A stretch of 64,000 nucleotides of DNA, taken from contig NZ_JAGIOE010000001.1 of NCBI RefSeq assembly GCF_017876575.1, positions 1,240,001-1,304,000 on the forward strand. The letters run 5' to 3'. The notes under the pieces are model-generated. The model had not been told where the DNA came from and did not search any database. It saw only the letters and a program-made list of their open reading frames with translations. The stretch is from Paeniglutamicibacter psychrophenolicus (GTDB lineage: Bacteria; Actinomycetota; Actinomycetes; Actinomycetales; Micrococcaceae). Positions 3,336 through 61,486 of the stretch are shown here, one piece after another. Position 1 is the first letter of the stretch, and each line of letters begins with the position of its first letter. The position numbers and the translations under genes are program-made.

Positions 3336-3989
3336 TCACTTGCCCGCGTCCTTGCGCTGGCGAGCGGTGAAGACCGACTCGGCGCGGATCTGCTCCCAGT
3401 CCGCGCCGATTCGGGTGGCGCCGCGGGCCTTGCTGGTCATCTGGCTGTAGGCGTCCATGGCTTCGGCTGCTGTTTCCCGGGTGTAGGTCAGTGAGCGCTC
3501 GGGGGCGATGCCCAGGCTGGCACCGACCTCGACGGCGTCCTGGTCGCAACCCATGTAGGAAATGATCCAGTGGTCGACTTCCTGCTGGGCTTGGACCATG
3601 TCCCGGATGGCCCGGCGGGAGTACCGGGTGGAGGCGTTCTCGTGTCCGTCGGTGGCGATGTTCAGGTGCACGATGCCCGGGCGCTTGTGGGCAGGCATGG
3701 CGGCAATGCGCTTGCGGGTGTTGGTGATGGTCGTGGCGATCGAGTCGAACAGGGCCGTGGAGCCGCGGGGTTCCAGGGTGAACACGGGCACGTCCTCCAG
3801 TGGCTTGTCCAGGTAAACGTCTTCGTACTCGTTGTCGAATTGGTGCAGGGAGGCGGTTGCGCTGCCTGCTTCCGCCTTCTGCTTCTCGACGTAGGCGTTC
3901 AGCCCGCCCTCGATGTCGTGCTTGATGTCGTGCATGGAGCCGGAACGGTCGAGCAGGAAGACGAGCATGGCGGTGTCTTTGTTGGACAT
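3336..3989 (-). CDS. VWA-domain protein with intact MIDAS
   Basis: A 217-aa protein made almost entirely of one von Willebrand factor A domain. The metal-ion-dependent adhesion site is complete: DRSGSM at residues 14-19, Thr78 in RGSTALFDS, and Asp114 in ATDGHE. There is no signal peptide or membrane segment, so it is probably intracellular. Small bacterial VWA proteins, such as TerY-type ones, often act as metal-dependent protein-binding partners beside kinases or phosphatases. Here the partner gene is a dual-specificity phosphatase one base downstream. The upstream HTH gene is 30 nt away and probably shares the promoter. The function is inferred from context only. Confidence 0.8.
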   Translation of the reverse strand: MSNKDTAMLVFLLDRSGSMHDIKHDIEGGLNAYVEKQKAEAGSATASLHQFDNEYEDVYLDKPLEDVPVFTLEPRGSTALFDSIATTITNTRKRIAAMPAHKRPGIVHLNIATDGHENASTRYSRRAIRDMVQAQQEVDHWIISYMGCDQDAVEVGASLGIAPERSLTYTRETAAEAMDAYSQMTSKARGATRIGADWEQIRAESVFTARQRKDAGK

Positions 3990-59149: not shown

Positions 59150-59596
59150 ATGGGGATCAAGGACGACGCAGTGCAGGTCCGTGCACAGGGCTGGCGCACG
59201 CTCGCCGCGCTCCACAACCTCATCGAAGGTGAGCTTGAGCGTGCCCTGCAGGCCAAGCATGGCCTGTCAGTCGTTGAGTTCACGGTGCTCGATGCCCTGA
59301 GTCGGCAGGACGGGTGGCACATGCGCATGGCCCAGCTCGCCCGCGCCGCCGCACTGTCTTCCAGTGCCACTACCCGCTTGGTGACCCGGCTCGAGGACCG
59401 TGCCCTGTTGACCCGCATCCTGTGCCAGGATGACCGCCGCGGAATCTATACCGAGCTCACGCCCGCGGGGGAGCAGCTGTGGGCCGAGGCCCACCCGACC
59501 CACGATGCGGTGCTCAGGGAAGCGCTCGAAAACGCCGCCCGGGTTCCGGAGCTGCAGGACCTGGTCACCGCGGTCGCGCCCGACCCCAACGCCTAG
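59150..59596 (+). CDS. MarR-family regulator of the MFS/aldo-keto reductase operon
   Basis: A 148-aa MarR protein with MAQLARAAALSSSATTRLVTR as recognition region and CQDDRRGIYTEL in the wing. ATG 59150 has AAGAGGAGC before it; the open frame starts further upstream. It should repress the divergent efflux gene. Its TAG stop (59594-59596) is where the IS630 element sits: TA is the target dinucleotide and G the element's first base, and the uninterrupted sequence would also read TAG. Confidence 0.88.
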   Translation: MGIKDDAVQVRAQGWRTLAALHNLIEGELERALQAKHGLSVVEFTVLDALSRQDGWHMRMAQLARAAALSSSATTRLVTRLEDRALLTRILCQDDRRGIYTELTPAGEQLWAEAHPTHDAVLREALENAARVPELQDLVTAVAPDPNA

Positions 59597-59624
59597 TGGT
59601 CATTAACCCAAGTTCGTCGGGGGT
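59596..59624 (+). repeat. IS630 left terminal inverted repeat
   Basis: 29 bp beginning GTGGTCATTAACCC, exactly complementary to 61199-61227. Flanked outside by TA. Confidence 0.95.
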
Positions 59625-59966
59625 TCAGGTCCAGGCGGTCGGGTCATTGAAGTAGAGGCCGCAGGCGGTGTCGAGGGCTTCCTCGGCGCTGCCCAGCGGA
59701 AGTCCGCTGGGCAGCACCGAATCGTCGTAGTCGTCGTGGCTGGCGCGGTAGATCGCGAATCCCCAGACATGCGCCGATCCGCCGTAACGCAGCCGGCACA
59801 GCTTCTGCATCGTCGGCTCCGCGTCCCCGGCGGTCCGGGCATCGACATAGGCGAAACGGCCCCTGAACCGCAGCTCGATGTCGCGGATCTGCGGCCACCG
59901 CTCCCTCGCCCGGATCAGCAGGCGCTGCTCGAGGGAGGTCTTCGTGGAGTCGGGGATCACGGCCAT
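59625..59966 (-). CDS. IS630 passenger protein, unknown function
   Basis: A 113-aa hypothetical protein inside the element, opening MAVIPDSTKTSLEQRLL and containing RFRGRFAYVDAR, LRYGGSAHVWGFAIY and LPSGLPLGSAEEALDTACG. The Gly/Tyr/Trp-rich core looks well folded and conserved; I have the impression that relatives occur alone in other actinobacteria. Start ATG 59966 leaves 90 bases to the divergent transposase; the stop begins at the inner edge of the left repeat. Role unknown: transposition helper or harmless cargo. Confidence 0.7.
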   Translation of the reverse strand: MAVIPDSTKTSLEQRLLIRARERWPQIRDIELRFRGRFAYVDARTAGDAEPTMQKLCRLRYGGSAHVWGFAIYRASHDDYDDSVLPSGLPLGSAEEALDTACGLYFNDPTAWT

Positions 59967-60056
59967 GGTTCGTATTCTTCCCCATTTTCCTCCGTTTGCA
60001 CCCGCCTCCCGGCGGCCTGGTTGACGACGGGGCGGTGCGGGGTGGATAACGGAAAC

Positions 60057-61199
60057 ATGGCCATGAAATCCCCGTTTCCGATCCATCTGGATCCCGCCGA
60101 GCAGCGGGTGCTGGAATACCGCGCCCGCGGCTCCAAAAGGCCCCACCGGGAGGTGGAGCGCGCCCGGATCATCCTGGCCGCGGCCCGCGGGGAACCCCTG
60201 GCCCGGATCGCCACGGCCCTGGGCATCCACGTGGACACCGTCCGCAAGTGGTGCAAGCGCTTCGCCGCCGAGGGGATGCGCGGGCTGAAAGACCGGCACC
60301 GCTCCGGGCGCCCACGGGTCTTCACCCCGGTGCAGGTCGCCGGGATCAAGGCGCTGGCCTGCACCCCTCCGACCGAGAAGGACCTGCCGTTGTCCAGGAT
60401 GACCACCGGTGAGATCAGGGACCTGGCGGTGGCCGAGCACCTGGTCGACGGCATCAGCCTCACCACCATCTGGCGCTGGCTGGATCAGGACGCCATCAAG
60501 CCGTGGCAGCACCGCTCCTGGATCTTCCCCCGGGACCCCGACTTCGCGGCCAAGGCCGGACGCGTCCTTGACCTCTACGCACGCACCTGGAACGGGCAAC
60601 CGCTGGGCCCGGAGGACTATGTGGTCAGCGCGGATGAGAAATCCCAAATCCAGGCCCTGCACCGCCGGCACCCGTCCCTGGCCCCGGGCCCGGGACGGGC
60701 GACGCGCATCGAGTTCGAATACTCCCGTGGCGGGACCCTGGCCTACCTCGCCGCCTACGACGTGCACCGGGGACTGGTCGCGGGTTCCATCGCCCCGAGC
60801 ACCGGCATCGCGCCGTTCATGGCGCTGGCCGGCCAGGTGATGGCCGCCGAACCGTATGCCTCGGCCCACCGGGTGTTCTGGGTCGTGGACAACGGGTCCT
60901 CGCACAACCGGGCCCCCTCCATCGCCCGGATGTCCGCGGCATGGCCGAACGCGACCCTGGTGCACCTGCCGGTGCACGCCTCCTGGCTGAACCAGGTGGA
61001 AATCTACTTCTCCATCCTGCAGCGCAGGGCCATCGCCGGCGCCGACTTCCCGGACCTGGACGCCCTGGCCGAGCGGATCATGGCCTTCCAGGAACGCTAC
61101 AACGCGACGGCGGACCCCTTCGACTGGAGGTACACGCGGCACGACCTCAACGACTACCTCCACCGGCTGGCCGCGCACGAACCCGGGCTTGCCGCCTGA
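60057..61199 (+). CDS. IS630-family DDE transposase
   Basis: A 380-aa transposase. The N-terminal HTH part includes LARIATALGIHVDTVRKWCK. The DDE triad is Asp193 (SADEKSQ), Asp278 (WVVDNGSSH) and Glu315 (NQVEIYFS), with 36 residues between the last two, inside the family's DD34-37E range. The stop TGA overlaps the first base of the right inverted repeat. The ATG at 60057 was chosen; a second Met is two codons on. Confidence 0.92.
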   Translation: MAMKSPFPIHLDPAEQRVLEYRARGSKRPHREVERARIILAAARGEPLARIATALGIHVDTVRKWCKRFAAEGMRGLKDRHRSGRPRVFTPVQVAGIKALACTPPTEKDLPLSRMTTGEIRDLAVAEHLVDGISLTTIWRWLDQDAIKPWQHRSWIFPRDPDFAAKAGRVLDLYARTWNGQPLGPEDYVVSADEKSQIQALHRRHPSLAPGPGRATRIEFEYSRGGTLAYLAAYDVHRGLVAGSIAPSTGIAPFMALAGQVMAAEPYASAHRVFWVVDNGSSHNRAPSIARMSAAWPNATLVHLPVHASWLNQVEIYFSILQRRAIAGADFPDLDALAERIMAFQERYNATADPFDWRYTRHDLNDYLHRLAAHEPGLAA

Positions 61200-61227
61200 C
61201 CCCCGACGAACTTGGGTTAATGACCAC
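61199..61227 (-). repeat. IS630 right terminal inverted repeat
   Basis: 29 bp, the exact reverse complement of 59596-59624, flanked outside by TA (61228-61229). Confidence 0.95.
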
Positions 61228-61486
61228 TAGCCAGCCTTCCGATTCACGCCAAACCCCGCCGCATCATCGGCGAGCTCGGGCAAGATCCGTGACGTTCCGT
61301 GTGCCCGCATGTCCGCTCGATGACGCCCGGTGACTTCCCGCGGCATACGAGGCGGCGTTCCGGCGGTGGCGGTGACGCTTCATGACAACGTGCTTCGGTC
61401 GGTGACGGGCCGGATGCGCAACCCCCTTCCCGGTTCCTAGAGTCAAGTCATTGATTCGACGCGAACCTTCGAAGGAGCCCACCCGC

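Follow-up and report, generated by a model that had tools for sequence, protein, structure and literature searches.

An IS630-family insertion sequence with a conserved second gene in Paeniglutamicibacter psychrophenolicus

Does the second gene inside an IS630-family insertion sequence of Paeniglutamicibacter psychrophenolicus belong to the element, and if so, what might its product do? The element lies in a 64,000-nucleotide stretch of the genome (hereafter the window), for which a preliminary description had placed an IS630 element at 59596–61227, with a transposase gene and an oppositely oriented gene of 113 codons (the passenger) whose stops both sit at the inner edges of the terminal repeats. 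These statements stand: repeats and TA duplication give the same bounds, both open reading frames were confirmed, the passenger stop codon (59625–59627) lies directly next to the left repeat, and the final base of the transposase stop (61197–61199) is shared with the right repeat. The features are as follows.

59594–59595, no strand: left TA target duplication, inside CTAG 59593–59596 (empty CTAG in genomes G050, G111 and G168)
59596–59624, plus strand: left terminal inverted repeat, a perfect match to the right arm
59625–59966, minus strand: accessory (passenger) gene, 113 aa, with homologues and a confident predicted structure
59967–60056, no strand: divergent intergenic region between the passenger and transposase genes
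60057–61199, plus strand: IS630-family DDE transposase (Pfam, NCBIfam), 380 aa from the first start; start at 60057 or 60063
61199–61227, minus strand: right terminal inverted repeat, a perfect match to the left arm
61228–61229, no strand: right TA target duplication, inside CTAG 61227–61230 (from the empty-site comparison)

The element is complete: its terminal repeats match perfectly, TA is duplicated within a CTAG target, and both the transposase and the opposite 113-codon gene are there. Counting the CTAG, which is the preferred target of IS630 elements, the inverted repeats are 32 bp long (59593–59624 and 61199–61230) and 100% complementary; the TA duplication (59594–59595 and 61228–61229) falls within the outer CTAG, leaving 59596–61227 as the element proper. 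The gene upstream of the insertion was matched in 13 of 15 genomes of the genus (own genome included) and nine loci were aligned. The site is empty in G050, G111 and G168, because the joined flanks align there as one block through a single CTAG; the other six loci aligned poorly or on the left side only and are uninformative on this point. The transposase scores 172 bits with the NCBIfam model transpos_IS630 (NF033545; cut-off 100) and 52 bits with the Pfam domain DDE_3 (cut-off 28.6), and it also carries HTH domains. An IS630-type transposase, enclosing terminal repeats and insertion at TA with its duplication are thus all present, and the usual description of the family as having one transposase gene, which is no strict criterion, does not fit a locus with a second conserved gene at 59625–59966. 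We classify the locus as an IS630-family insertion sequence with two genes.

The passenger had been described as folded and under selection, and both properties are borne out, the first by a confident prediction and the second by dN/dS and a frame control. Median dN/dS is 0.27 for the passenger (178 pairs) and 0.25 for the transposase (41 pairs). Across 39 pairs of homologues of equal length, the annotated frame has a median pN/pS of 0.33 and zero stops, and the other frames have values of 0.42–1.97 and contain stops; the annotated frame is the lowest of the six in 38 of the 39 pairs. Purifying selection acts on passenger and transposase with similar strength. Its AF2 model (pLDDT 91.5, pTM 0.85) consists of a helix, five strands and a helix. 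In an alignment of 16 bacterial and archaeal members (A1), residues P5, A20, R33, Y40, R58, L59, G63, W68, A71, S76, Y80, G88, E95 and Y105 are invariant, and R15 and R35 are conserved. The isoelectric points of the family span 4.5 to 9.8; the proteins are not uniformly basic, and the passenger is therefore no simple basic DNA binder.

We did not find a known protein family for it. The window protein has no Pfam or NCBIfam match at E values up to 1, no PHROGs match and a best PADLOC value of 0.06, and the 16 A1 members yielded nothing above noise against Pfam, NCBIfam, PHROG and PADLOC (best, bPH_6, E 3e-4, in 3 members). Comparison with PDB sequences gave nothing convincing (best E 0.63), and Foldseek with the predicted model returned no match with E < 0.001 in the PDB or among viral models. 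Two fold leads were followed and set aside as too weak to use. XisI-like structures appeared in Foldseek with weak scores (2nwv, E 0.88, TM 0.37; 3d7q, E 0.70, TM 0.31) and were absent among the best 50 rows of VIA, in which all Z scores were below 8 and the best was 1ylx (Z 6.5, rmsd 3.6, 88 aligned); for nucleic-acid binders of the HPF/RaiA or dsRBD-like type VIA gave 4hei (Z 5.5, rmsd 3.3, 80 aligned) and 8rd8 (Z 5.2, rmsd 4.0, 84 aligned). An origin as a phage gene was likewise rejected, there being no match in the phage collection and no relative among the 9 pattern matches in viral contigs.

The genome itself holds a second full copy (G000:C1:3575495-3577129) with 89% nucleotide identity, in which the passenger frame is intact (82% amino-acid identity) and the transposase is frameshifted into two pieces. 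Between these two copies dN/dS is 0.28 for the passenger and 0.27 and 0.31 for the transposase pieces. Divergence along them is uneven, with 81–97% identity per 136-bp bin, and recombination between copies may account for this. A third site (1235432–1235577), about 4.4 kb before the window, is a remnant with one end and the last 40 residues of the passenger at 75% nucleotide identity. Elsewhere, the single-contig genome G949 carries four copies of one element at four sites, one with a damaged passenger (L195), and genome G1240 has 14 copies, many at contig ends, all with both genes. Because the copies occupy different sites, both genes move together: transposase, passenger and repeats form one unit, and relatives of the element have multiplied with both genes. 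The distance matrices of the two proteins are correlated (r 0.50, 0 of 10000 permutations, n=28; within the window's clade 0.51, n=17), a moderate correlation that shows linked descent, not contact, and for which inheritance of the element as a whole would be explanation enough.

How regularly the two genes occur together was counted for 52 distinct, near-full-length actinobacterial passengers (alignment A3), from the window and the genome searches, on the 5' side within 1.5 kb. This is the co-occurrence check that the preliminary description had suggested, and it came out in favour of pairing: transposase sequence was found for 41 of the 52 (39 divergent, 2 co-directional), and 11 had none on that side within that distance. 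In 33 of the 52 the transposase covers at least 300 of 374 positions, and enclosing repeats are detectable in 24 of these 33. The passenger is also not a random fragment of this single copy, the finding named beforehand as fatal to the idea, since there are two full copies in its own genome and many actinobacterial and haloarchaeal homologues in IS630 elements. In a later class-level sample, from which two partial loci were left out, a divergent transposase adjoins 10 of 15 near-full-length passengers; three of the others are truncated at or near a contig end and two are without. On plasmids, 8 of 12 loci, two haloarchaeal elements among them, are paired (6 divergent, 2 co-directional), three cyanobacterial passengers stand alone and one pair is split. 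The last, on a Dietzia plasmid (L025, 1013–7366), has its transposase and passenger separated by two tyrosine recombinase genes and a DUF6262 gene, an arrangement that looks like a cassette insertion in the intergenic region.

Gene order is not fixed. In haloarchaea the passenger lies downstream of the transposase, co-directional, after a 28-bp gap and inside repeats of 27–33 bp, and the pair is also co-directional in family f9. The passenger thus belongs to an old element-borne family that occurs in IS630 elements of both actinobacteria and haloarchaea, with two gene orders. Three unpaired passengers (L055, L056 and L089) are remnants that retain a terminal repeat on the 3' side, and L065, tallied as paired on account of a transposase scrap, has lost internal sequence but keeps both ends and an intact passenger.

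The converse search, with transposase query P0001 in 30 genomes picked for carrying the passenger, gave 63 matches. All 44 near-full-length transposases among them (339 or more residues aligned, at least 37% identity) adjoin a passenger in these passenger-selected genomes, including three G1240 copies that the passenger search had not listed and in which the passenger was present on reading. Passenger-less relatives do exist. A group of transposases with 35% identity has seven copies in genome G1451, and both of the two that were read lack a passenger; in one of these (L181) repeats lie close around the lone transposase. Partial matches were also read as passenger-free (L183, L184 and L185); L184 (G425, 43% identity, frameshifted) is a transposase alone between short CTAGTGC ends. 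Ten plasmid loci with a related transposase and seemingly no adjacent full passenger were read as well. One has the passenger after all (L112), in another an IS4 interrupts the passenger, of which the first half is present (L115), six show one recognisable end at most (L107, L109, L110, L111, L113 and L114), and one, at 33% identity, is an ordinary one-gene element (L116). In the tenth (L108, 542–2681) two ends enclose a C-terminal scrap of the passenger and a methyltransferase frame, apparently a captured gene. Pairing is therefore not strictly universal, given these passenger-less relatives and the lone cyanobacterial homologues.

Passenger matches were counted in several genome samples. In the organism's own family 11 of 395 genomes have one (protein query, weak fragments included), in the phylum sample 5 of 396, in the G416 family 48 of 394, in the G443 family 18 of 401, and in the class sample 16 of 335 at E up to 1e-15. 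The samples share genomes, and for most genomes scoring covered only part of the first-look candidates. Homologues were present in 36 plasmid records (Streptomyces 16, Rhodococcus 11, also Nostoc, Halococcus, Halobellus, Acaryochloris and others), mostly labelled 'hypothetical protein' or unannotated, with one 'ATP-binding protein' and one bearing a DUF4937 label. The three cyanobacterial plasmid homologues (L033, L034 and L035, each at about 3459–3875) are extended at the N-terminus and lack an IS630 gene in the vicinity; neither a transposase nor the searched-for repeats occurred in 7.4 kb. At another locus (L069, 1501–2346, in G873) the passenger continues into a C-terminal region that weakly resembles HEAT repeats, and no transposase lies nearby; this may be a case of domestication.

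Some passengers of Streptomycetaceae continue into a P-loop kinase domain (AAA_33, PF13671, 77 bits against a cut-off of 27) that is Pnkp-like and falls short of the full bacterial Pnkp equivalog (54 vs 750 bits). Two 2.1-kb IS630 elements (L030, 1822–3929; L053, 328–2435) contain a transposase and such a fusion inside perfect 32-bp repeats, genome G921 has two copies of the fusion element, and four fusion genes (L119, L120, L124 and L126) have no transposase or repeats nearby. The same kinase is found free-standing on Streptomyces plasmids, at 86–87% identity and beside unrelated genes, and because of this the fused kinase looks like a recent capture, which weakens the fusion as functional evidence for the passenger.

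What, then, does the passenger do? It is almost certainly an integral, selected part of the element. The notion that it arose by chance, as a captured fragment or as one of the many long spurious frames of GC-rich DNA, has next to no probability against its homologues, the selection on it, the frame control and the confident predicted fold; random capture in particular is ruled out by the homologues, the frame control and the pairing with the transposase. Since it follows one transposase group through changes of gene order and across domains of life, the passenger most likely serves the element, and it probably works in transposition or its control, cofactor and regulator taken together, as opposed to having a role in the host. 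Among the roles put forward in the preliminary description (assisting transposition, target choice or host fitness), assistance to or regulation of transposition appears to fit best. The protein would act for the element itself as a transposition accessory or regulator, touching the transposase and/or nucleic acid, and would be made from the opposite side of the shared intergenic region in actinobacteria and from downstream of the transposase in haloarchaea.

It could be objected that the gene is a true passenger without any part in transposition, one that benefits the host or plasmid, for instance by dampening defence or stress. Stand-alone homologues on cyanobacterial plasmids would suit this view, as would the PNK-like kinase and the methyltransferase captured at the same place and the insertion sequences with host-type passenger genes described in parts of PMC6305408. 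The passengers in those parts of PMC6305408 vary by element, however, whereas here bacteria and archaea share one family that accompanies one transposase group, and searches of PADLOC, Pfam, NCBIfam and PHROG gave nothing above noise; we regard this alternative as unlikely. Within the preferred reading, of a protein acting for the element, the passenger might be a negative regulator, repressing the divergent transposase gene or limiting copy number, as opposed to a helper in the reaction. The divergent layout, with gaps mostly of 71–131 bp, speaks for such a regulator, as do the arginines at 33, 58, 15 and 35, but an alignment of 28 intergenic regions revealed no conserved operator, the regions not aligning with one another, the haloarchaeal gene is co-directional and downstream, and the helix–five strands–helix model has no helix-turn-helix. 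This sub-case is accordingly a rather improbable one. A consensus promoter scan reported none; by eye, the window has TTGACG–18 bp–GATAAC (60021–60056), some 7 bp ahead of the transposase ATG, which could be the promoter of a leaderless transposase message; the scan did not report it.

We infer that the element belongs to an IS630 subgroup, so far little described, whose members carry a conserved accessory protein that most likely serves as transposition cofactor or regulator. A bolder form of this proposal, which we hold tentatively, is that this branch of IS630/Tc1-mariner is a two-component system, in which a dedicated alpha-beta accessory, kept across Actinobacteria and Haloarchaea, would be required for efficient or properly targeted transposition, and the kinase-fused copies would be natural extensions acting on nucleic-acid ends. 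A conserved partner throughout an IS630 subgroup in two domains would, if true, open to experiment the question why a helper or regulator was gained by some members; plasmid proteins that are mostly 'hypothetical' or unannotated would acquire a family, and element boundaries would become easier to draw.

Helper genes are known in other insertion sequences, namely IS21 (IstB, an AAA+ ATPase) and IS66 (TnpA/TnpB). The present element resembles these in joining a transposase to a conserved element-encoded second protein and differs from IS21 in that this protein is a predicted alpha-beta protein of 113 aa with no family match. With IS630 itself and with ISY100/ISTcSa of the Tc1/mariner superfamily it shares an HTH and DDE_3 transposase, terminal inverted repeats, TA duplication and a CTAG target; unlike the described IS630 members, which have a single transposase gene, it keeps a second, unrelated gene conserved inside the repeats. 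An IS630 accessory or passenger gene of this family was not found described in the open-licence PMC literature searched, in the parts covered of PMC7325037 and PMC2770080 among others; ISfinder lay outside this scope, and absence from print is not thereby established. ISAm1 of Acaryochloris was considered as the same element and dismissed, being a one-gene, unclassified element in the relevant part of PMC8763236. For ISY100, an IS630 member, sections of PMC2170065 report that the transposase alone suffices in vitro; the mechanism of the family therefore needs no partner in general, and the earlier view of typical members as transposase-only agrees with that text. ISHsp2 likewise has two ORFs in one IS630 element, but each of these encodes one half of a transposase that frameshifting makes whole (PMC3606827, in part), whereas the second ORF here is unrelated to the transposase and usually on the other strand. 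A comparable layout is that of the insertion sequences with passenger genes treated in portions of PMC6305408, which also hold an extra gene inside the terminal repeats; theirs have host-type functions or none named and vary between elements, whereas the family described here is constant across its transposase group and across domains of life.
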